Below, piece by piece: positions 5,919 through 17,441 of a DNA stretch of 64,000 nt; within the stretch, counting starts at the first letter, position 1, and each line of letters starts with the position of its first letter. The notes below the pieces were generated by a model that was not told the origin of the DNA, did not search any database, and worked only from the letters and a program-made list of their open reading frames with translations. The stretch comes from Halosimplex litoreum. Lineage in GTDB: Archaea; Halobacteriota; Halobacteria; Halobacteriales; Haloarculaceae. The translations under genes were made by a program, and so were the position numbers. Location of the stretch: contig NZ_CP065856.1 in the NCBI RefSeq assembly GCF_016065055.1, positions 434,001-498,000 of the forward strand. The letters are read 5' to 3'.

Positions 5919-8474
5919 ATGGCAATTGATGGCACGGGGGGCAACGAGTCAGACCAGGTCGCGACGGGGGGCGAGCGGCTCTCGGGGGACGGTGCGACCG
6001 TGGGCGAGTACACGTGGAACGACCTGCGCCGGGACGTACACACGGGGGGACGCTTCGACCGCAGCGAGTACCTCGGGTTCGACCCGCTCGACGTCGAGGA
6101 CCGCCTACAGGCGGGCGCGAGCGCCGCCAAGACGCTCGAACGGGCGTGGGGGGAGCGCATCGAAGCCGAGCGCTCGTTCGTCGTCAAGGACCGCTACACC
6201 TGGGAGCACTTCAAACAGGAGTACTACTACGACGAGGACGGCGAGATCCCGCGGGACAGCGACGGCGAGAAGGTCCCGTTCGAGCCCGAGGAGTACCTCG
6301 GGTTCGACCCGGACGAGACGGAGGACCGACTGAGTCAGGCCGGGGGAGCCGCCGAGCGGCTCGCGTCGGTCGTCGACGAGCGCACTATCGACGTCAACCC
6401 CGACCTCGACGAGGACGCCTTCTTCTCGACGGTCGACGGCCACTCGACGGTCGTCAACCGCTACGACCTGGAGAAGGCGGTCCCGCTGGAGAAGAAGGCC
6501 CACTTCGTCGAGGTCGAGCGCTACTGGGTGAACAAACCGTACGCCTGCGTGATCATCTTCCACTCGCGCAAGGAAAACGAGAAGAAGTACTACGCCATCG
6601 AGCCCTACCAGAACGACATCGAGTCCCAGCTGGTCGGCTTCCTCTCGGGCAAGCTCAAATCGGCTATCAAGTACTCCGAGGACGAGATCGTCGTCGAGGG
6701 GAGCGACGCCGACCGCGCCGGCGTCATCCAGCGCGAGACCGAGCGCCTGCTCGAACGCTACGACCTGTACACGCCCGGCCAGCAGGGCGAGTTAGGGGTA
6801 CTGGACCAGCTCAAAGGGGCGCTGGGCATGGACGTCGCGGTCGAGACCCAGGGGGGTGAACTGGACGGCATCGAGGCCCGGCCCGAGCCGGCGGTCGTCG
6901 GCGACGACCCGAAGACGCTCAACGAGTACCAGGTCGAGAAGCTTCTCTACCGGCTGAAACGGGACTTCATCGGGTACGCGCGCATCGACCCGATCAAACA
7001 CGACATCAACGTCGAGGACATCTCCTGCGACGGCTACAACTCCCGGGTGTTCGTCTACCATACGGAGTACGAGAACATCATCACGAACGTCGAACACGGG
7101 CGCCAGGAGCTCGACGACTTCGTCGTCAAACTCGCCCAGCGCTCGGGGAAGGGGATCAGCAAGCGTCAACCGCAGGTCGACGCCACCCTCCCCGACGGGT
7201 CGCGCTCACAGCTGACGCTGGGCGAGGAAGTGTCCGACCACGGGACCAACTACACCATCCGTCAGTTCAAGGACGTCCCGTTCACGCCGGTCGACCTCAT
7301 CAACTGGAACACGTTCTCGCTGGACGAGATGGCGTTCCTCTGGCTCTGTATCGAGAACAACAAGTCGATGATCTTCGCGGGCGGTACGGCCTCGGGGAAG
7401 ACCACCTCGCTGAACGCCATCTCCCTGTTCATCCCGTCCAACGCGAAGATCGTCTCCATCGAGGACACGCGCGAGGTCGAACTCCCCCAGCGCAACTGGG
7501 TCGCGTCGGTCACCCGCCCCTCCTTCGGCGAGGACGACAAGGGCGACGTCGACGAGTTCGACCTGCTGGAAGCCGCGCTCCGACAGCGCCCCGACTACAT
7601 CGTGATGGGCGAGGTCCGTGGTGAGGAGGGTCGCGACCTCTTCCAGGTCATGTCGACCGGGCACACCGCCTACTCTACCTTCCACGCCGACACCGTGGGC
7701 GAGGTCATCAAGCGGTTCACGACCGAGCCGATCAACGTCTCGAAGACCCTGTTCACGGCGCTGGACCTGGTCTCCATCCAGACCCAGACCCGCGTCGACG
7801 GCAACAAGGTGCGCCGGAACAAGAACCTCACCGAGATCAACGAGTACTCCGCCGAACACGACGAGATCAACGTCCGCGACGTCTACGAGTGGCAGGCCGA
7901 GACCGACGAGTTCCTCCAGATGGGCAACTCCAACACGCTGGAGGAGCTGAAGTTCGACCGCGGGTGGACCCAGGAACGGCTCGACGAGGAGCTGTTCATG
8001 CGGAAGGTCGTCCTCGCGTATCTCATCGAACAGAACCTCAACACCTACACGGAGGTCGCGGCCGCGGTTCAGGCCTTCATCAACGACCCGGACACGATCA
8101 TGGCGCTCGTCGCCGAGGACAAACTGGAGCGCTCGCTGGAAGACCTGCGGGACATGGAGTCGGTCAAGATCGACATCGACCCCGAGAAAGAGGAGATGGT
8201 CCCGCGGCCGGACCCGCCGGCGGAGATGCTCGACGAGGCCGAGGACATCCTCGAGAACGCCCAGCCGCTGTTCCAGCGCTTCCGCGAGAAGGAGACCTCG
8301 GACATCGTCGACGCCCTGACGGGGTCGGGCGTCGACGAGGAGGAGGCCGATATCACGCCGATAGAGAGCGAGGCCGAGACCGACATCACGCCGGTCGAGA
8401 GCGAGGACGACGACGACGATATCGACTTCAGCGAGTTCGTCCCGGCCGCCGGTGCGGAGGCTGACGAGGCATGA
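5919..8474 (+). CDS. pilB3: Type IV pilus assembly/secretion ATPase, PilB3-like
   Basis: An 851-residue cytoplasmic hexameric ATPase of the GspE/PilB/VirB11 superfamily that powers pilin extrusion. The Walker A motif AGGTASGKTT has its lysine at about residue 494; the Asp box is SIEDTREVELP, the Walker B region YIVMGEVRGEE, and the His box STGHTAYSTFHAD. The N-terminal 350 residues are the family-specific extension, here with an internal duplication of a YTW...EYLGFDP...EDRL module. The C-terminus is an acidic tail with a repeated DITP(I/V)ESE. It overlaps pilC by four bases. The size, order and PilC fusion type match the haloarchaeal PilB3/PilC3 machine that makes adhesive pili, rather than the archaellum motor FlaI (about 550 residues). 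Confidence 0.92.
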   Translation: MAIDGTGGNESDQVATGGERLSGDGATVGEYTWNDLRRDVHTGGRFDRSEYLGFDPLDVEDRLQAGASAAKTLERAWGERIEAERSFVVKDRYTWEHFKQEYYYDEDGEIPRDSDGEKVPFEPEEYLGFDPDETEDRLSQAGGAAERLASVVDERTIDVNPDLDEDAFFSTVDGHSTVVNRYDLEKAVPLEKKAHFVEVERYWVNKPYACVIIFHSRKENEKKYYAIEPYQNDIESQLVGFLSGKLKSAIKYSEDEIVVEGSDADRAGVIQRETERLLERYDLYTPGQQGELGVLDQLKGALGMDVAVETQGGELDGIEARPEPAVVGDDPKTLNEYQVEKLLYRLKRDFIGYARIDPIKHDINVEDISCDGYNSRVFVYHTEYENIITNVEHGRQELDDFVVKLAQRSGKGISKRQPQVDATLPDGSRSQLTLGEEVSDHGTNYTIRQFKDVPFTPVDLINWNTFSLDEMAFLWLCIENNKSMIFAGGTASGKTTSLNAISLFIPSNAKIVSIEDTREVELPQRNWVASVTRPSFGEDDKGDVDEFDLLEAALRQRPDYIVMGEVRGEEGRDLFQVMSTGHTAYSTFHADTVGEVIKRFTTEPINVSKTLFTALDLVSIQTQTRVDGNKVRRNKNLTEINEYSAEHDEINVRDVYEWQAETDEFLQMGNSNTLEELKFDRGWTQERLDEELFMRKVVLAYLIEQNLNTYTEVAAAVQAFINDPDTIMALVAEDKLERSLEDLRDMESVKIDIDPEKEEMVPRPDPPAEMLDEAEDILENAQPLFQRFREKETSDIVDALTGSGVDEEEADITPIESEAETDITPVESEDDDDDIDFSEFVPAAGAEADEA

Positions 8475-10564
8475 GCCTCGGGCGGTCCTCCCAGCAACTC
8501 GGCGGGTCGAACACGGTCGGGGACACGTTCTACCCCCTCTACCAGGCGCTGTTCGACGAGGACGGCGACTTCGTCTCGGGCATCGAGGCCAAACTCGCCG
8601 AGGCTCGGATGGGCGACAACGTCGAGATGTACATCTCGCGGGCGCTGGCGGTCGGGACTCTCGCCGGACTGACCCTCTGGCTGCTCGGCATGCTCCTCGG
8701 GTTCCTCCTCGTTCAGTTGCTCGGCCTCGCCGAGGGACCGCTGCTCGGCTTGCGCATCCCCGAGGCCATCGAACCGGTCGTGCTGGCGTTGAAAGTGCCT
8801 GCGATCGTGTTCGTCTCCGGGATCGTCTTCGGCGCCGTCGGCTTCGGCATCGGCTTCGGCTCGCTGCTGTCGATCCCCTACTTCCGGTCGAACGCGCGCA
8901 AACGCGAGATCAACGTCCTCCTCTCCGATTCGGTCGCGTTCATGTACGCCCTCTCGGTGGGCGGGCTGAACCAGCTGGAGATCCTGCAGGCGATGGCACA
9001 GGCCGACGACACCTACGGCGAGGTGGCCAAAGAGTTCCAGTCGATCGTCCTCGAGACGGAGTACTTCGACACCGACTACCGGACCGCGATCCGCAACCAG
9101 TCCATCGAGACGCCCAGCGAGGAACTGAGCCAGTTCCTCACCGACATGCTGTCGATCGTCGACTCCGGCGGTGACATGACGTCGTTCCTCGAGGACCAGA
9201 AGGACAAGCAGATGCGGACGGCAAAGCAGGAACAGAAGAAGATGCTGGACACGCTGGAGCTGTTCGGCGAGATGTACATGACCCTCTCGCTGTTCCCGCT
9301 CCTGCTCATCATCATCACCGTCATCATGAGCATGATGTCCTCGGGGTCGCGCATGGACATGATGGTCGGCACCGTCTACGGGCTCATCCCGCTGACGGGC
9401 GTCGGGTTCCTCGTGCTCACCTCCACCGTGACCCAGGACTCCATCGGTGACGGCTACCTCCACCCCGACCGCGGCGCCGAGACCTACAACGAGGCCGACG
9501 ACGGACTGTTGAGCCTCGGCCTCGTCGAGGGGTACACAGGGACCTACGGCGTCTTCGACCGGGTCAAGAGCCGGGAGGGGACCTACCGCGCCACCCAGAT
9601 CCTCAAACAGCCACACATCTTCTTCCGCAACAACCCGCTGTACGTGCTGGGGATCACGATCCCGATCACGATCGCCTTCTTCGCCGTCGTGGTCATCTTC
9701 CACATGGCCCCGATGACGATCTCGGAGCTGGTGGTCCCCCAGGGCGGGGACGTGCCCGAGGGGCTCAACGACCCGAGCAAGCGCTGGGTGTACCCCGTCA
9801 TCACGGGGACGTTCATGTGGGTGTACGTCCCGATCTATCTGAACTTCCTCCCGCTGGCTATCTTCTACGAGTGGAACCTCCGGACCCGGCGCAGTGTCGT
9901 CGGCAACCTCTCGGAGAACCTCCGCAAGCTCGCCAGCGCGAACGACACCGGGATGACCCTGTTGGAGTCGATCCGGGTCGTCGCCGACACCTCCTCGGGG
10001 CGGATGGCCGACGAGCTGGAGACGATGCACGCCAAGGTCAACTACGGAACCAGCCTCAAGGACGCGCTCCGGGAGTTCAACAACCGCTATCACATCCCCC
10101 GGCTCGCCCGGACGGTCAAGCTCATCAGCGAGGCCCAGGAGGCCTCCAGCCAGATTCAGGACGTGCTCTCGACCGCCGCCCAGGCCTCCGAGAATCAGGA
10201 CGACATCGATCTGGAACGCAAGTCCCGCGCCCGGATGCAGATGGTCATCATCATCATGACCTACCTCACGCTGCTGGGCGTGATGGCGCTGCTGAAGGTC
10301 CGGTTCCTGACCGTCATGGCCGATCTCGCGACCCAGACGACCTCCAGCGGGTCCTCGGGCGGCGTCCCCGGTGGCAGCTTCAGCGGCGTCAACACGCAGA
10401 TCCTCTCGGTGCTGTTCTTCCACGCCGTCGTCCTCCAGGCGCTGCTGTCGTCGTTCATCGCCGGCTACATCCGCGACGTGAGCCTCCTGTCGGGCGTCAA
10501 GTTCGCCGTCGTCCTGCCGACGATCGCGCTGATCGTCTGGTACGTCGTCACGCTGATATCCTGA
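8471..10564 (+). CDS. pilC3: Type IV pilus membrane platform protein, PilC3-like
   Basis: A 697-residue polytopic membrane protein. It contains two T2SF/GspF-type cytoplasmic domains, one in each half (around residues 150-260 with ALSVGGLNQLEILQAMA, and 470-590 with LRKLASANDTGMTLLESI), separated by membrane segments near 60-95, 110-135, 275-330, 400-425 and 445-465, and followed by about three near the C-terminus. PilC/TadC platforms couple the PilB motor to pilin subunits in the membrane. The start overlaps the pilB stop (ATGA), so the two are translationally coupled. The duplicated T2SF architecture is usual for haloarchaeal PilC3. No prepilin peptidase lies nearby. Confidence 0.9.
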   Translation: MSLGRSSQQLGGSNTVGDTFYPLYQALFDEDGDFVSGIEAKLAEARMGDNVEMYISRALAVGTLAGLTLWLLGMLLGFLLVQLLGLAEGPLLGLRIPEAIEPVVLALKVPAIVFVSGIVFGAVGFGIGFGSLLSIPYFRSNARKREINVLLSDSVAFMYALSVGGLNQLEILQAMAQADDTYGEVAKEFQSIVLETEYFDTDYRTAIRNQSIETPSEELSQFLTDMLSIVDSGGDMTSFLEDQKDKQMRTAKQEQKKMLDTLELFGEMYMTLSLFPLLLIIITVIMSMMSSGSRMDMMVGTVYGLIPLTGVGFLVLTSTVTQDSIGDGYLHPDRGAETYNEADDGLLSLGLVEGYTGTYGVFDRVKSREGTYRATQILKQPHIFFRNNPLYVLGITIPITIAFFAVVVIFHMAPMTISELVVPQGGDVPEGLNDPSKRWVYPVITGTFMWVYVPIYLNFLPLAIFYEWNLRTRRSVVGNLSENLRKLASANDTGMTLLESIRVVADTSSGRMADELETMHAKVNYGTSLKDALREFNNRYHIPRLARTVKLISEAQEASSQIQDVLSTAAQASENQDDIDLERKSRARMQMVIIIMTYLTLLGVMALLKVRFLTVMADLATQTTSSGSSGGVPGGSFSGVNTQILSVLFFHAVVLQALLSSFIAGYIRDVSLLSGVKFAVVLPTIALIVWYVVTLIS

Positions 10565-10640: not shown

Positions 10641-11558
10641 TCAGTCGTCCGCGGTGGCGGTCGACTCGTCGAGTTCGTCGGTTGCCGTGGCGGTGGCGTC
10701 GGGCGTTCCAGGCTCGCCGGCGGTCGCGGTCCGTTCGGGCGTCGCGTCCGGGTCGACGGGGGTCGGGGTCGACCGTCGGGTGACGTTGCCGACCCAGTCG
10801 GGCGGGCTCACCGTCGACTCGCCGAGTCGGCTGTAGTCGTAGCGTATCGAGACGCGTGAGCTGTCGCCGTCGACGATGCGGTCGTACTCGGCCGCCAACG
10901 ACCGGACGAACCCCTCCTGAGTGACGTAGGCGGTGGCGCTGAAGTCGCTGATGGTCGCCTCGGCGGGCCCCAGCGCCCCCGGCGACGGGCCGCCGGCAGT
11001 GTAGAGCCGGTAGTAGGTTCGGTCGCGTCGGTCGACCGTCGACACCGCGACCGTCCGTCCGTCGAAGAACTGCCGGATCGACACGGTCGCGAAGACGTAG
11101 TCGGCGGCTCGCCCGGGGAGTTTGATCAGGTCGTACCGAGTCCGGTCGGCCTCGGCGACTCGTATGAATCCGCCGGTCTCGTTGACGTACAGCGAGACGT
11201 TCCGTCTGGGTTCTCCCTGGGCCTGCGAAATGGAGAACGTCTCGGGCCCGACGACGACTCGCCGGAGGAACCCCTCACCGGGCTCGTCGGAGTTCTCTCT
11301 GATCGACCACGTGTACGTTCGGTTCTCCAGATAGGCGGTGTGGGCGCTCGTGAGTGCCTCGGCGTCGATCGTCCCGTTGGCGCTCACACCCGGCGGTCGC
11401 TCGCCGCCGATCGTCGGCGCCGGCGTGGAGCTGTCGGTGACGGGCACGGGTGTCACGGTGTCCGTCGGCCCGGCTCCAGGCCTGTCGCCGCCGAACGAAA
11501 CCGCGCTACACCCGGCTACGAGGACGACGACCACGACGGCCACGAGACCCCAGCGCAT
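10641..11558 (-). CDS. Secreted lipoprotein of unknown function
   Basis: About 305 residues. The N-terminus MRWGLVAVVVVVLVAGC is a lipoprotein signal with lipobox VAGC, followed by a Ser/Thr/Pro-rich linker. The globular part contains repeated beta-rich segments (ALTSAHTAYLENRTYTWSIR, RTYYRLYTAGG, EGFVRSLAAEYDRI), which resemble a widespread haloarchaeal lipoprotein family (DUF7537 type, from memory). The C-terminal 50 residues are Thr/Ala/Pro-rich and probably lie at the cell surface. An in-frame ATG at 11585 would add nine residues; I prefer 11558 because the signal peptide then starts properly. It is convergent with pilC and may be surface-related, but there is no direct evidence of a pilus role. 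Confidence 0.75.
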   Translation of the reverse strand: MRWGLVAVVVVVLVAGCSAVSFGGDRPGAGPTDTVTPVPVTDSSTPAPTIGGERPPGVSANGTIDAEALTSAHTAYLENRTYTWSIRENSDEPGEGFLRRVVVGPETFSISQAQGEPRRNVSLYVNETGGFIRVAEADRTRYDLIKLPGRAADYVFATVSIRQFFDGRTVAVSTVDRRDRTYYRLYTAGGPSPGALGPAEATISDFSATAYVTQEGFVRSLAAEYDRIVDGDSSRVSIRYDYSRLGESTVSPPDWVGNVTRRSTPTPVDPDATPERTATAGEPGTPDATATATDELDESTATADD

Positions 11559-11645
11559 CACCTGCGCTACGGCCCTGTGACACAATACGCCTTCGACGGG
11601 AGATGCGAGGGGTAAAGCCGATCCGACGCCTACGACCGCCGAATC

Positions 11646-12004: not shown

Positions 12005-12095
12005 GGACTCGCGGGGACTTGAGCCCGGAGGCAGACGGTCGCACGCTTCGGTCGCGGATTTGCTCGCGACGCGAGAATCGTGGACTCGCCGGGAC
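12005..12095 (-). repeat. Partial copies of the tRNA-Ala 3' end (possible attachment-site scars)
   Basis: Downstream of tRNA-Ala, in tRNA orientation, are two further pieces resembling its 3' end. 12005-12029 reads like a diverged T-arm plus 3' acceptor strand (ending in CGCGAGTCC). 12080-12094 is an exact 15-base copy of the tRNA end (GTGGACTCGCCGGGA on the plus strand, again at 12172-12186). Repeated tRNA 3' ends are the usual trace of integrative elements that target tRNA genes. No integrase or cargo remains between the copies, so these are scars at best. Confidence 0.5.
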
Positions 12096-12172
12096 CGAGC
12101 GAACGCGAAGCGTTCGCGAGGGTCGGCGAACTCACGAACGACTGACGGAGCGAAGCGACGGAAGGAAGTGAG

Positions 12173-12244
12173 TGGACTCGCCGGGATTTGAACCCGGGGC
12201 CTTCCCCGTGCCAGGGGGATGATCTACCACTGATCTACGAGCCC
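12173..12244 (-). tRNA. tRNA-Ala (anticodon GGC)
   Basis: A 72-nucleotide cloverleaf on the minus strand. The acceptor strands GGGCTCG and CGAGTCC pair with a G3:U70 wobble, the universal alanine identity element, followed by discriminator A. The D-arm is GATCAGTGGTAGATC. The anticodon stem TCCCC/GGGGA encloses the loop CTGGCAC with anticodon GGC. The T-arm is CCGGGTTCAAATCCCGG. CCA is not encoded beyond the discriminator, as is usual in archaea. No intron is seen. Confidence 0.97.
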
Positions 12245-12385: not shown

Positions 12386-12477
12386 GGGAGTCCCGTTGTC
12401 CGCGACAGACGCGGACGGGTCCGGGCGTCGTTCGGGGGACGACGGCGACGCCCGCGGCCACCGTCAGGGGCACGCGA

Positions 12478-13094
12478 TGTCAACATTCGGAGATAGCGAC
12501 AGGTCCGCGACACACGGCGCGGACGTACGGCGAGTCGAGCGTGACGAGCGACTGCGACGCCGCGAGCGGGGGCAGACGACGCTGGATTTCGCGCTCGGGA
12601 TGAGCATCTTCCTGCTATCGCTCGTCTTCGTGGTGGCGTTCGTCCCGGGGATGTTAGAGCCGTTCTCCGGGGGTGCCCAGTCGGAGACGCCGGCGGTCAA
12701 CCGCGTCGCCGACGACCTGACCCAGGGGACGCTCGGCAACGCGAGCGCGCCGTACGTGCTCGACGAGACCTGTACGGTCGAGCTGTTCACGGCGGGCGTG
12801 CCCGGGGAGTGTCGTTACGACGGCACGGAACTGTCCGACCGGGTCGGGGTCCTCGAACGGTCGCCGGTGAACGTGACGATCCGCGGCGATCTGGACGGGT
12901 CCGGCGCGGACGACATCCTCTGTTGGGACACCAGCGTCGTCGGGGGGCAACTGGCCGAACGGGGCGCGAGCGGGTGCGGGCCGTTGCTGACCGGTGGGTC
13001 CAACCCCGCGGGCAGCGGCGGGAAGACCGTCAGCGCGCAGCGGGTCGCGCTGCTCGACGGCCAGGACGTGACCGTCGAGGTGGTGATGTGGTGA
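12478..13094 (+). CDS. Pilin-like secreted protein, first gene of a five-gene operon
   Basis: 205 residues. A charged N-terminus (residues 1-33) ends in RRRERGQTTLDFALGMSIFLLSL, a type III signal-like arrangement: basic patch, short motif, then one hydrophobic helix, with the rest outside the cell. The exterior part is acidic with several N-x-S/T sequons and a few cysteines (DETCTVELF, PGECRY, ILCWD, SGCGPL) that could form disulfides. The RGQTTLDFA...FVPG signature matches a haloarchaeal family that I recall as DUF7287. It overlaps the next gene by four bases (GTGA). Its place downstream of pilB/pilC suggests an extracellular filament component or minor pilin, which is inference. Confidence 0.72.
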
Positions 13095-13738
13095 CGCCGC
13101 GTCGACCGCCGGGCGACGGCGGCGACCCGGGGCGGACGGACGCGGTGTCCGCCGACGCGCGCGGACAGGCCCACACGCTCGAAGGAGTGGTAGCGAGCCT
13201 GATACTGCTGTCGGCGGTGGTGTTCGCGCTGGAGATGACGGCGGTGACGCCGCTGTCGGCGAGCACGTCCAGCCAGCACATCGAGAACCAGCAGGAGGCG
13301 ACGGCGCGGGGCGTGCTCGCGTCGGCGGCGGAGACTGGCGCGCTGGAGCGGGCGGTGCTGTCGTGGAACGCGACGAGCGAGGAATTCTACGCCACGACCG
13401 ATCGGGGCTACTTCGCGTCGGCTCCGCCGAACCGCTTCGGTGAGCTGCTCGAACGGTCGTTCGATCGTAACGGCATCGCGTACAACGTTCGCCTGCAGTA
13501 CCAGGACGCCGACGGTACGCGCGACAGCCGGCGCTTCGTCTACCAGGGGCGTCCGAGCGACAACGCCGTCCAGGCGACGTGGTCGCTGGTGCTGTTCGAG
13601 AACGACCGAATACGCGACCGAGACGGGGATCCGACGGCGACGACTGTCGCCGACGAGTCGACGCTGTTCGCACCGCCGGCGTCGGACGGCGCGGTGTACA
13701 ACGTCGTCCGCGTGGAGGTGGTCGTGTGGCGGATCTGA
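13091..13738 (+). CDS. Pilin-like secreted protein, second gene of the operon
   Basis: 215 residues from a GTG overlapping the previous stop codon. After a polar 25-residue leader comes ARGQAHTLEGVVASLILLSAVVFALEMTAVTPL, one transmembrane helix with the QAHTLEG motif that I recall from the haloarchaeal family DUF7288. The external domain has YFASAPPNRFGELLERSF and a beta-rich end (VYNVVRVEVVVW). The conserved gene order with its neighbours suggests these single-helix proteins form one surface complex handled by the archaeal pilus or secretion pathway. No prepilin-peptidase cleavage site of the canonical A/G-x-x-F type is obvious, so processing is uncertain. Confidence 0.7.
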   Translation: MTPRRPPGDGGDPGRTDAVSADARGQAHTLEGVVASLILLSAVVFALEMTAVTPLSASTSSQHIENQQEATARGVLASAAETGALERAVLSWNATSEEFYATTDRGYFASAPPNRFGELLERSFDRNGIAYNVRLQYQDADGTRDSRRFVYQGRPSDNAVQATWSLVLFENDRIRDRDGDPTATTVADESTLFAPPASDGAVYNVVRVEVVVWRI

Positions 13739-14664
13739 ACGCCGGCGAGCGAGCGCGGGACGAAGACGGACACGCGACCGGTCGCTCCGGTCGCGGCCGC
13801 GGGCAGATAATCCTCGTCGGGGCGTTCGCGCTGGCGGTCGTGTTCGTCGCGCTGGCGCTGGTCATGAACGCGGCGATCTACACGGAGAACCTGGCGACTC
13901 GCAGCGAGTCCGCGGGGACTGCCGATGCCCACGTGTTCGAGCGCACGACGACGAAGGCCGCCGAGGAGGCGTTCCGCTACGCCCACGAGGTCAACGCCAG
14001 CGACCACGAGGGGCTCAGACGGAACGTCACGCAGGCGATGGACGCCTACCACAACGTGACTCGAACCCAGCAGGCGGCGGGCGGCCAACTCGTCGACGTG
14101 GCGGTCGTGCCGACGCCGCCGGCGGGGACGAACGTGACGGAGACGAACACCGTGTTCGAGAGTCCCGGAGGGACCGGTGACTGGACCGTGGCGAGCGGCG
14201 TGAGCGGCACCCGGTCGTTCCGACTCGACGTGGAGAACTGGCTGGGCGACTCGGACGACGAGCTGTGGGTCGTCGCCGGCGACGCCGACGACTGGTATCT
14301 CAACGTCTCCTACGACGGCAGCCTGTGGGAGGTCGGCGTCAACGACTCCGGGACGTACACGACCTGCGCGACGACGGCTGCCAGCGACGTGACGATCGAC
14401 GTCTCCGATGGAACGGTCGACGGCGACGAGTGTGCGGCGCTGACCCTCGGCGACGTGGGCGGGAGTTACGCCCTGAAGATACGGAACGGGTCGGTCGCCG
14501 ATGGAGATTACACGATGATCGCCGACGTGGAGCCGACGGCGGTCGCCGCGGGCGTCCCGACCGAGGAGGTGCTCTACGCGATGACGGTCGACCTGACCTA
14601 CCGGACGCCGGAACTGCGCTATCGGACGACGATCCGGGTCGCCCCGGGTGAGACCGGTGGGTGA
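13726..14664 (+). CDS. Pilin-like secreted protein, third gene of the operon
   Basis: 312 residues from a GTG at 13726, overlapping the preceding gene by 13 bases. The N-terminus has GRGQIILVGAFALAVVFVALALVMNAAIYTENLATR, a single membrane helix followed by the YTENLATR motif typical of the haloarchaeal family I recall as DUF7261. The large external part is Asn/Thr/Asp-rich with many N-x-S/T sequons and likely glycosylation, and contains one pair of cysteines (TTCATT, DECAALTL). The overlap argues for tight co-translation with its neighbours. Confidence 0.7.
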   Translation: MADLNAGERARDEDGHATGRSGRGRGQIILVGAFALAVVFVALALVMNAAIYTENLATRSESAGTADAHVFERTTTKAAEEAFRYAHEVNASDHEGLRRNVTQAMDAYHNVTRTQQAAGGQLVDVAVVPTPPAGTNVTETNTVFESPGGTGDWTVASGVSGTRSFRLDVENWLGDSDDELWVVAGDADDWYLNVSYDGSLWEVGVNDSGTYTTCATTAASDVTIDVSDGTVDGDECAALTLGDVGGSYALKIRNGSVADGDYTMIADVEPTAVAAGVPTEEVLYAMTVDLTYRTPELRYRTTIRVAPGETGG

Positions 14665-15184
14665 TCCGCCGCCGCGGCGTCGCAGTCGCGAGCGTCGCGC
14701 ATCGAGGGGCGCCAGTGGCGGGCAAAAGCGTAGCGTCGGTTTCGGCGGCCTGCGGGGCCAGTCCACCGCGCTGGACTACACACTCTCGCTCGCGGTGGCG
14801 TCGCTCGTCATCACCGGTCTCCTCGTCGCGGCGGGAGATTTCGTCACACACCAGCGTGAGGAAGTCGTCCGGACGGAGCTGGGCGTCGTCGGGGAGCAGT
14901 TGGCCGGCGAAGTCGACGCGGCCGACCGGCTGGTTCGGGCCAGCGACACCGAGTCGCTATCGCTGAACGCGTCGCTCCCAGAGACGGTCGCCGGAGCGAG
15001 CTACACGATCGCGGTCGACGATACGGCCACCGGAGAGTGGCTCAACCTCACCGCCCAGGACCCGGATATCACGGTCTCCGTCCGACTGGAGACGGAGACG
15101 CCCCTCGATCCCGATACCGTCGGTGGCGGACGGATTCGGGTGGTCTACGACCCGGTAGCGGAGCATCTGGAGGTGCGCGGATGA
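14648..15184 (+). CDS. Pilin-like secreted protein, fourth gene of the operon
   Basis: About 178 residues; the start is a GTG at 14648, with an alternative GTG at 14657. A basic 37-residue N-terminus precedes RGQSTALDYTLSLAVASLVITGLLVAAGDFV, one hydrophobic helix similar to the haloarchaeal family I recall as DUF7266. The external domain is short and beta-rich (ASYTIAVDDTATGEWLNLT, DITVSVRLETETPL), fitting a small pilin-like fold. It overlaps both flanking genes (17 bases upstream, 4 bases downstream). Confidence 0.68.
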   Translation: MRPVGDPPPRRRSRERRASRGASGGQKRSVGFGGLRGQSTALDYTLSLAVASLVITGLLVAAGDFVTHQREEVVRTELGVVGEQLAGEVDAADRLVRASDTESLSLNASLPETVAGASYTIAVDDTATGEWLNLTAQDPDITVSVRLETETPLDPDTVGGGRIRVVYDPVAEHLEVRG

Positions 15185-16017
15185 CGCGGCGTCGACCACC
15201 AGCGACCGTCGTTCGGGGGACCGAAGACCGCAGCAAGCCGGCTGGAGCAGTCGGTCGTGGGTCCGACCGACGGGGAGTCAGCGACCTGATCGGGTTCGTG
15301 CTGGTGTTCTCGCTGGTCGCGGCGGTCGTCGCGATCGTGTCCCTGGCGGGACTGGCCTCGCTGGAGGACGCACGCGACGCCCAGCAGACGGACAACGCAG
15401 AGCTTGCGATGGAGGTCCTCTCCGACAACGTGGCGGACATCACCGAGCGGGGCGCACCGAGTCGCGCGACCGAGATCAGTCTGTCGGACGCGTCGCTCAC
15501 GCTCGCCGACCCGATCCAGATCGAGGTCCGCGACCCGACCGGCCCGCCGGACGAGTCGTTCTTGACGACCCGGACGTTCAACGTCCGACCGATCGTCTAC
15601 GACGATGGAGGCACGGAGCTCGTGTACGTGATGGGAGCGATCTTCCGCGCCGAACGGCAGGGGGGAACGGTCGTGCAGCCGTGGTCGCCGGTCGTCAGCG
15701 CGGACCGGACGATGGTCCAGGTCGTCAACACGGGGTCGGCGACCGACGGGGTGCAGCTGATCGAGAGCTCGACGGTACTGGTGCGGACCAATAGCAACCA
15801 ACGCGTCGTCGCTGCAGAGGACGACACGAGCGCGTACGACGATATCTGGATCAACGTGACGTCCCCCCGACGCGACCTCTGGGAGCGGATGCTCGACGAT
15901 CACCCAGCGATGGACTGCTCGACGACCGGTCCCGAGACGGTCGAGTGCGAGGTCACCGTCGACCCGCGCGATCTCTACGTCGTCGAACACCGGATCGCGG
16001 TCGACTTCGAGCGGTGA
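15181..16017 (+). CDS. Pilin-like secreted protein, fifth gene of the operon
   Basis: 278 residues. DRRGVSDLIGFVLVFSLVAAVVAIVSLAGLA is the type IV pilin-like helix, followed by a helical stalk (LEDARDAQQTDNAELAMEVLSDNVADI) as in true pilins, then a beta-rich head. It resembles the haloarchaeal family I recall as DUF7289, also represented by the convergent gene at 16050-17441. It starts with an ATGA overlap and is the last gene of the operon. The RGVSxxxGFxLxF motif is the closest of the five to class III signal sequences recognised by archaeal prepilin peptidase, which is inference from the motif. Confidence 0.72.
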   Translation: MTRRRPPATVVRGTEDRSKPAGAVGRGSDRRGVSDLIGFVLVFSLVAAVVAIVSLAGLASLEDARDAQQTDNAELAMEVLSDNVADITERGAPSRATEISLSDASLTLADPIQIEVRDPTGPPDESFLTTRTFNVRPIVYDDGGTELVYVMGAIFRAERQGGTVVQPWSPVVSADRTMVQVVNTGSATDGVQLIESSTVLVRTNSNQRVVAAEDDTSAYDDIWINVTSPRRDLWERMLDDHPAMDCSTTGPETVECEVTVDPRDLYVVEHRIAVDFER

Positions 16018-16049
16018 GGCGCCAGCCGGGGGCGGATCGCGAGACTCGA

Positions 16050-17441
16050 CTACCGGCTCGTGACGTTGATCGAGTTGACCGTCACGTGGAGGTACGTGAG
16101 CTTGGTCACGTCGCCGGTCAGGTCGAGGTCGATATCCTCGATCGACTCGTCGTAGTGGAAATCGTTGGGCTTGCCGCTGATGTGGATGCTCTCGCAGTTC
16201 GCGCCGCCCTCGAAGTACCCCTTGCCGCTGAGGTGGCAGTGCGAGTCCGGTGCGTAGATGAAGCCCGTGAACGCCCGGTTCCCGGTGACGTGCATGTCGC
16301 CGTCGGAGTGGACGACGACACGGAACGCGCTCGGATCGCCACCGCCGTTGAGGTCGGACCCGATCGTGAAGTCGTTCCTGACGAGGACGGTGGTCGCGTT
16401 GTCGCCGGTGACGGAGACGGAACTCGGTGCGAACGTTCCGTCGACGACGACGGTGACGTTCCCTTCCGACGTATCTACGTCCAGTGCCCCGCTGAACCCG
16501 GTGTCGGAGTAGTACGTCCCCGCGGTGTCGATATCGTCGAAGTCGGTCGTAGTGTCACAACCCCCCGTCTCGCATTCCTCGATCCGGTCTTCGATCTTCG
16601 AGTCCGCCGACGGGAAGGTCACGCCGGTCTCGTGTGGTTCGGGGTCGGACCGACCGCTGCTTTTGATCCCCGCGGCGTTGCTCGTGGCCAGGAGATCGTC
16701 GAACTCCTCGTCGAACGGGACCACCAGTTCGGTTCGCGCGGTCTCGTTGGGGTGGTCGTAGTAGACGGTCCCGTCGGTGCGTTGCTCGAAGTAGCGCCCC
16801 CAGGCCTGGTAGAAATCACTGTGGACGGTGACGTTGACCCGCCCCTGGTCCAACGGGTTGACGAAGTCGTTGCTCCCGGTCGTGTTCGGGTACCTGATCG
16901 ACGGCGGACCGTCTTTGGTCACTCTGGCGCCCGATCCGAGGGTCCGGGAGCTGTTGACGCGGATGATCGGGAGCGTCAGCGTCTGCTGGCGGAAGTGGAA
17001 CTCGGGAGGCGAAACCATCGATACGCCACCGTCCGTCCGTTTCCAGACACCCCCGCCCTGGTAAGCGATCGTCGTCCGGTCGCCCTCGTACGACACCGCA
17101 CCCATAGTCACGTTGGCGACCGTCCGAGTGGTTCCGGTGGACTGGTTCGTGACGGATACGTTCATCCACCCGCGGTCGTCGTCGACGTAGTACCCCGACT
17201 CCCGCTCGGTCGCCAGTTCGATCCCCTGTGAACTGGTACCGCCCAACGCGACCATCGCGCTCCGCGAGTCGAACTGTGTCAGTGCCTTCTCCGCCCGGTT
17301 CGTGTCCAGTTGCTGGCGCGTATCGTCCAGTCCCGCCGCACCGACCGTGACGACGACTGCCGTTCCCCCGATAACGATCGCGAACAGCAGCGTAATCCCC
17401 AGTACGCTACTCACGCCCCTACCGTCGTGACTCGTCGGCAT
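16050..17441 (-). CDS. Large pilin-like surface protein
   Basis: 463 residues, convergent with the pilin-like operon. The N-terminus SHDGRGVSSVLGITLLFAIVIGGTAVVVTVG is a pilin-type signal/helix followed by a coiled stalk (DDTRQQLDTNRAEKALTQFD). The middle holds repeated beta segments with many sequons. The C-terminal 120 residues (TVVVDGTFAPSSVSVTG, ... RVVVHSDGDMHVTGNRAFTG) look like a right-handed beta-helix/bactofilin-like stack as in haloarchaeal DUF7305-type domains, and contain three cysteines. The ATG at 17441 is chosen because the signal begins there; an extended reading would add 130 unrelated residues. Likely a cell-surface or filament-tip protein. Confidence 0.7.
   Translation of the reverse strand: MPTSHDGRGVSSVLGITLLFAIVIGGTAVVVTVGAAGLDDTRQQLDTNRAEKALTQFDSRSAMVALGGTSSQGIELATERESGYYVDDDRGWMNVSVTNQSTGTTRTVANVTMGAVSYEGDRTTIAYQGGGVWKRTDGGVSMVSPPEFHFRQQTLTLPIIRVNSSRTLGSGARVTKDGPPSIRYPNTTGSNDFVNPLDQGRVNVTVHSDFYQAWGRYFEQRTDGTVYYDHPNETARTELVVPFDEEFDDLLATSNAAGIKSSGRSDPEPHETGVTFPSADSKIEDRIEECETGGCDTTTDFDDIDTAGTYYSDTGFSGALDVDTSEGNVTVVVDGTFAPSSVSVTGDNATTVLVRNDFTIGSDLNGGGDPSAFRVVVHSDGDMHVTGNRAFTGFIYAPDSHCHLSGKGYFEGGANCESIHISGKPNDFHYDESIEDIDLDLTGDVTKLTYLHVTVNSINVTSR

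Follow-up and report, generated by a model that had tools for sequence, protein, structure and literature searches.

A conserved cassette of predicted pilin genes beside a PilB4-type motor in Halosimplex litoreum

Six pilin genes at one locus

We analyzed a stretch of 64,000 nucleotides (nt) from Halosimplex litoreum (NZ_CP065856.1, positions 434,001 to 498,000), here called the window, whose own positions serve as coordinates throughout, and describe in it a cassette of six genes whose products we designate pilins A to F. Genes A to E lie on the forward strand in the order A (12477..13094; DUF7287, Pfam 7.1e-37), B (13091..13738; DUF7288, 4e-66), C (13726..14664; DUF7261, 3.1e-10), D, encoding the smallest pilin (14648..15184; DUF7266, 1.4e-23), and E (15181..16017; the short form of DUF7289, 7.6e-58), while gene F (16050..17441, reverse strand; DUF7289 and DUF7305, 6.5e-28 and 5.1e-34) is convergent to this operon, being read from 17441 to 16050. 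A first-pass annotation of the sequence had described five overlapping genes on one strand and a single convergent one, and this layout was confirmed, as were the overlaps of 4 nt (A/B), 13 nt (B/C), 17 nt (C/D), and 4 nt (D/E); the 17-nt overlap is tied to a GTG start at 14648 and becomes 8 nt if the in-frame GTG at 14657 is chosen. A single hydrophobic helix at the N terminus and an acidic exterior are common to the six proteins, whose calculated isoelectric points lie between 4.0 and 4.7; the helix and the acidic exterior had also been described. Two further features that the annotation had ascribed to all members held only in part: all six do match Pfam DUF families, but these are not all different, since E and F both belong to DUF7289, and sequons are enriched in C and F (each with p ~0.001 versus shuffles) and weakly in D (p 0.024), but not in the rest.

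All six pilins carry the canonical archaeal cleavage site R-[G/A]↓[Q/V] (the arrow marks the cleavage), in H. litoreum as R-G↓Q or R-G↓V, directly preceding the uncharged hydrophobic helix. The site reads RERG↓QTTLDF in A, with Asp at +5, ARG↓QAHTLE in B, with an invariant Gln at +1 and Glu at +6, GRG↓QIILVG in C, with no acidic residue near +5, LRG↓QSTALD in D, and RRG↓VSDLIG in E. These sites were conserved over about 20 genera and then over more than 100 loci, so that the earlier statement that most members lack obvious prepilin motifs has to be withdrawn. Counted over distinct sequences, [KR][GAS] occupied positions -2/-1 in 55 of 65 A proteins (a count that includes spurious frames overlapping pilC), 92 of 93 B, 91 of 95 C, and 99 of 100 D proteins, as well as in 146 of the 151 sequences that scored as E, whether short or long, and 26 of the 29 that scored as F; in B, the combination of R[G/A]↓Q with Glu at +6 was found in 92/93 proteins. 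The leader peptides of A to E comprise 25 to 37 amino acids (aa), a length that hangs on the choice of start codon and is often short in relatives. A review (PMC4371748) states that for archaeal prepilins to be processed, position -1 must hold G, A, or S and position -2 must be charged, and that acidic residues at +5 occur only in some archaeal pilins. As far as can be judged from their sequences, the six proteins are type IV pilins with class III prepilin sites.

The adjacent motor is of the PilB4 type

The same strand carries, upstream of the cassette, pilB (5919..8474), encoding a VirB11-like assembly ATPase of the PilB4 type (851 aa; T2SSE, 1.4e-31, at residues 413 to 626 in Pfam) with long N- and C-terminal extensions, and pilC (8471..10564), which overlaps it by 4 nt and encodes a TadC-like platform membrane protein (T2SSF, 1.7e-27). 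The first-pass annotation had taken this pair for pilB3-pilC3. However, the window PilB scored 20.6 and 24.0 bits against PilB3_N and PilB3_C, below the cut-off of 27 in both cases, and a separate H. litoreum PilB3 that passes both (46.2 and 82.3 bits) is encoded at 3.678 Mb, 3.2 Mb from the locus. The window PilB is 64 to 78% identical to PilB4-type proteins of other genomes and 48% identical to its own genome's PilB3. Because a Haloferax PilB4-type protein slightly exceeds the PilB3_C cut-off (29.3 bits), we relied on these identity values and on operon content in addition to the scores. PilB4 has been described as having additional N- and C-terminal regions and its own set of pilins (PMC4858521), and in the Haloferax PilB orthologues the terminal extensions are even longer than in H. 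litoreum. Taken by sequence and gene content, the pilin set is part of the PilB4-PilC4 system.

The same cassette lies behind the same PilB-PilC pair in Haloferax marisrubri and at eleven other Haloferax loci; two of the 12 are cut by contig ends, and the arrangement was read as far as the contigs reach. It is through these 12 other Haloferax loci, together with the published description, that we would link the cassette to HVO_1160, the PilB4 of Haloferax volcanii DS2. A transposon insertion in HVO_1153, which is numerically near HVO_1160 and may lie in the cassette, was reported to give a proline auxotroph (PMC4300041); if the gene does belong to the cassette, this phenotype would be hard to square with a role as pilin.

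Elsewhere in the H. litoreum genome (0.819 to 0.823 Mb), pilins of DUF7266 and DUF7289 are encoded beside a different PilB-PilC pair, possibly a PilB1-like system. DUF7266 thus occurs in another pilus system as well and is no marker for the PilB4 system.

To follow the association beyond single loci, we compared 30 genomes for PilB; these were picked to include negatives, so that the comparison is a test of consistency and gives no unbiased rate, and in the order-level negatives the absence of the cassette was judged by DUF7288 at E ≤ 1e-40. A PilB4-type protein and the DUF7287/DUF7288 cassette occurred together in 15 of the 30 genomes, and neither was found in 10. Genomes G104 and G141 have PilB3 with neither PilB4 nor the cassette, G011 and G195 have PilB4 and the cassette with no PilB3 at the threshold used, and G148 retains only a broken PilB4-type gene and lacks the cassette. 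The four apparent exceptions all belong to one genus: two retain PilB4-PilC4 with one E-type pilin behind them, another has both pilB and pilC broken, and the last has a broken pilB. At one of these loci (L184), the single E-type pilin carries a bacterial immunoglobulin (Ig)-like Big_1 head, and L184, L185, and L186 together look like a stepwise decay of the PilB4 system. The annotation had proposed to look for co-occurrence of the pilin families with pilB3; in the genomes compared, DUF7287 and DUF7288 instead follow intact PilB4, save in the one genus that has PilB4 but lost A to D.

Gene order of the cassette is conserved across the phylum

Using the ATPase alone as the query, we found 80 named haloarchaeal loci, of which 75 were assessable and 5 were cut by contig ends. 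The order pilB-pilC-DUF7287-DUF7288-DUF7261-DUF7266-DUF7289 is kept in 73 of the 75, with 68 exact cases, three in which C is duplicated, one without C, and one in which A fell below the score filter; most of the cassette is absent from the other two (L102 and L152). In a set of 41 loci, C is missing from four (L060, L065, L072, and L074) and can therefore be regarded as accessory. A phylum-wide sample of 148 genomes gave DUF7288 in 97, and all 16 distant loci that we read, chosen only for DUF7288, showed the order A-B-(C)-D-E, several of them with a long E/F-type pilin next after the cassette; for A, C, and D, part of these distant matches are low-scoring (15 to 40 bits) and are supported by position. 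The arrangement is thus far beyond chance, and on this comparative evidence the five-pilin order extends to other lineages of the phylum, with a gene set and gene order that are ancient.

The tight packing of the genes is conserved along with their order, the median distance from a stop codon to the next cleavage codon being 20 to 33 nt. This suggests an operon with possible translational coupling; the “strictly coupled synthesis” deduced earlier from the overlaps exceeds the data.

A second, diverged six-gene cassette was found in the same genome (L031, 1.836 to 1.842 Mb), with its own convergent pilin bearing DUF7305; the 20 kb that were read there hold no pilB-pilC. This suggests that two pilin sets, the second cassette and that of the window, may share one motor; a DUF7288 tree gave no clear origin for the second cassette.

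Pilin F is predicted to combine a pilin scaffold with an exchangeable head

The AlphaFold2 model of pilin F (predicted local distance difference test [pLDDT], 87) features a 55-residue N-terminal helix, a beta domain, and a predicted beta-solenoid head at about residues 243 to 442, which is followed by a constant C-terminal strand. Structural alignment placed this head closest to ice-binding beta-solenoids (Z 14 to 15 over 157 to 164 residues at 2.6 to 3.0 Å) and next to the Thermus thermophilus pilin ComZ (6QVI; Z 10.9, 170 residues, 3.2 Å), all other matches being at Z 7 or below. The match rests on the structural aligner, as Foldseek alone gave no E value below 0.001. Protein and profile searches of F against PDB chains returned nothing at E ≤ 1, ComZ included. 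Since no sequence homology was found, we describe F as ComZ-like in its working and not as a member of the ComZ family. ComZ itself was matched to an ice-binding protein by its own authors, who proposed it as a DNA-receptor pilin at the tip, a position argued on steric grounds (PMC6561018).

Of 43 long DUF7289 relatives, 19 bear a DUF7305 head and 24 a DUF7308 head, and all 43 end in a C-terminal strand, TYLHV[TS], that hardly varies. Two heads in front of one constant strand form the pattern expected if a pilin fold had received an exchangeable head just ahead of its last strand, as the predicted structure would also have it. One relative matches the Pfam “ice-binding-like adhesive domain,” which points to adhesion; the grafting of adhesive heads onto minor pilins is a known strategy (PMC10191384).

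Proposed function and alternative explanations

That the six genes encode pilin precursors, lie next to their cognate motor, and are inherited as a unit of fixed order can be regarded as shown at the level of sequence. Building on this, we consider it probable that these genes supply the pilins dedicated to a type IV pilus of the PilB4-PilC4 system, with minor pilins that start and cap the filament and with F at its tip as an adhesin or receptor. The six precursors would be cleaved by the prepilin peptidase of archaea and assembled into a filament by PilC4 and PilB4. A to E, whose families and residues near +5 differ, would for the most part serve as minor pilins, priming assembly and making up the tip, and the shaft would be built from one small pilin (D or A) or from a pilin encoded elsewhere. 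F appears to be a modular pilin, and the bulk of its head would best suit a place at or near the tip, where it could attach to surfaces or other cells or bind a ligand such as DNA. The surface filament of the type IV class, made of parts not studied so far, that the annotation had suggested is supported by these results.

Several observations weigh against this proposal. To our knowledge, a pilus made by PilB4 has never been observed. As one genus retains PilB4-PilC4 with a single E-type pilin after the loss of A to D, these four are not always needed. Gene F lies on the opposite strand and might be expressed separately. The sequences of F, E, and B have no similarity to any solved structure, and the model of pilin B (AlphaFold2, pLDDT 89) found no convincing fold counterpart: its fold search gave no match at E ≤ 0.001, and the best VIA-align score, Z 5.7, went to ribosomal and sensor domains, a result in which the absence of pilins proves nothing. 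Positions of A to E like those of GspH, -I, -J, and -K are thus unsupported. Finally, a hidden Markov model (HMM) of short-form C termini, run against those of the long forms, pointed only weakly to a last strand common to both (mean of 4.5 versus 1.0 bits for control windows, with 8 of 72 exceeding the controls' 99th percentile); the constancy of the strand across two heads is the better argument.

All six pilins might alternatively be structural subunits along a heteropolymeric shaft with no dedicated tip complex, which we consider unlikely. Makarova et al. (2016) proposed extra pilins as possible structural components of the filament (PMC4858521), archaeal filaments of alternating subunits are known (PMC8821640), and F is modeled with a typical pilin helix. 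However, the solenoid head of F, at about 190 residues, would pack poorly along a shaft, much as was argued for ComZ (PMC6561018), and the five families are of unequal size and carry different charges near +5, a trait of minor pilins. A DNA-uptake pilus with F as the DNA receptor, as proposed for ComZ, seems to us less plausible still and rather improbable. Its appeal lies in the ComZ solenoid fold predicted for the head of F, and type IV pili are required for natural transformation in two methanogens (PMC11267900); yet F is strongly acidic in its outer part, ice-binding and adhesive domains have the same fold, half of the relatives carry DUF7308 as their head, which suggests variable ligands over constant DNA, and no uptake genes were identified near the locus.

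The annotation had also offered a secretion apparatus as an interpretation, and for a short pseudopilus exporting proteins in the manner of type II secretion speaks the number of pilin genes in the operon, five, which resembles gspG-H-I-J-K. We give this explanation very little credence, given that no type II pseudopilin family (GspG/H/I/J/K) was matched at E ≤ 1 in Pfam or NCBIfam, that the family searches around the locus returned no gene for a secreted enzyme, and that single-membrane archaea with an S-layer (surface layer) are not known to have an outer membrane secretin.

Extending the proposal of a dedicated PilB4-PilC4 pilin set to the phylum Halobacteriota as a whole, we tentatively suggest that the cassette could be an ancient counterpart of the core minor pilins of bacteria, with five genes in fixed order for priming and tip formation and, above them, a modular tip pilin whose receptor head (beta-solenoid DUF7305 or DUF7308) is swapped between lineages; we hold this wider idea to be somewhat short of an even chance.

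Relation to known systems

The PilB4-type (Clade 2) pilus was predicted in outline by Makarova et al. in 2016, with the roles of its extra pilins left unclear (PMC4858521). The locus described here shares with theirs the extended ATPase, the PilC/TadC partner, and pilins of its own, and their minor pilin arCOG02911, which is duplicated and 250 to 550 aa long, fits the DUF7289 pair E and F. It differs in that pilBC of H. litoreum are parted from the pilins by DUF7537 and tRNA genes, and whereas the variable-length pilin was read as Ig-like in that study (PMC4858521), the long form in H. litoreum is predicted to bear a beta-solenoid head. The PilB3-PilC3/PilA pili of Haloferax volcanii have an ATPase and a platform protein of the same superfamilies and prepilin sites of the same type, but the PilB3 operon contains no pilin genes (PMC6491452), unlike the cassette, which is linked in nearly all relatives.

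With ComZ (PMC6561018), F shares a pilin scaffold, an ice-binding-like solenoid before the last strand, and neighboring pilin genes. The head of ComZ is about twice as large (~380 residues versus ~190), that of F is exchangeable with DUF7308, and the role as DNA receptor is a proposal made for ComZ. The bacterial sets PilH-I-J-K and GspH-I-J-K (PMC10191384) likewise combine several differing minor pilin genes with one ATPase, but have no family-level similarity to A to E, nor did the fold comparison of B give a clear match. Within the limited coverage of our literature search, which included a search by DUF family names, we found no account of the five-family cassette under these families and no description of a ComZ-like head on the variable-length pilin.

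PilB4 has no explained role in the model organism Haloferax volcanii, although it is expressed there, proteomics having detected it in cells grown in GMM medium (PMC7305310). Five fixed pilins and a modular, tip-like one make its function directly testable, through the tip pilins and the ligand of the head, and would broaden the concept of grafted tip adhesins, drawn from bacteria, to include archaea.

Genes around the cassette

Gene F is followed in the window by the genes for ribosomal proteins S15 and S3Ae, with a gene between them whose product matched no family. Scans of the locus for bacterial-type promoters and terminators gave no signal above chance. Between pilC and the cassette are a tRNA-Ala gene and a DUF7537 gene on the opposite strand (10641 to 11585, antisense; 28.9 bits, under the Pfam cut-off of 31.7), the latter found at the same position in a congeneric relative (L033). 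An exact direct repeat of 15 bases (12080 to 12094 and 12172 to 12186, 92 bases apart) reproduces the 3' terminus of tRNA-Ala and may be what remains of an integration event long ago in this interval.

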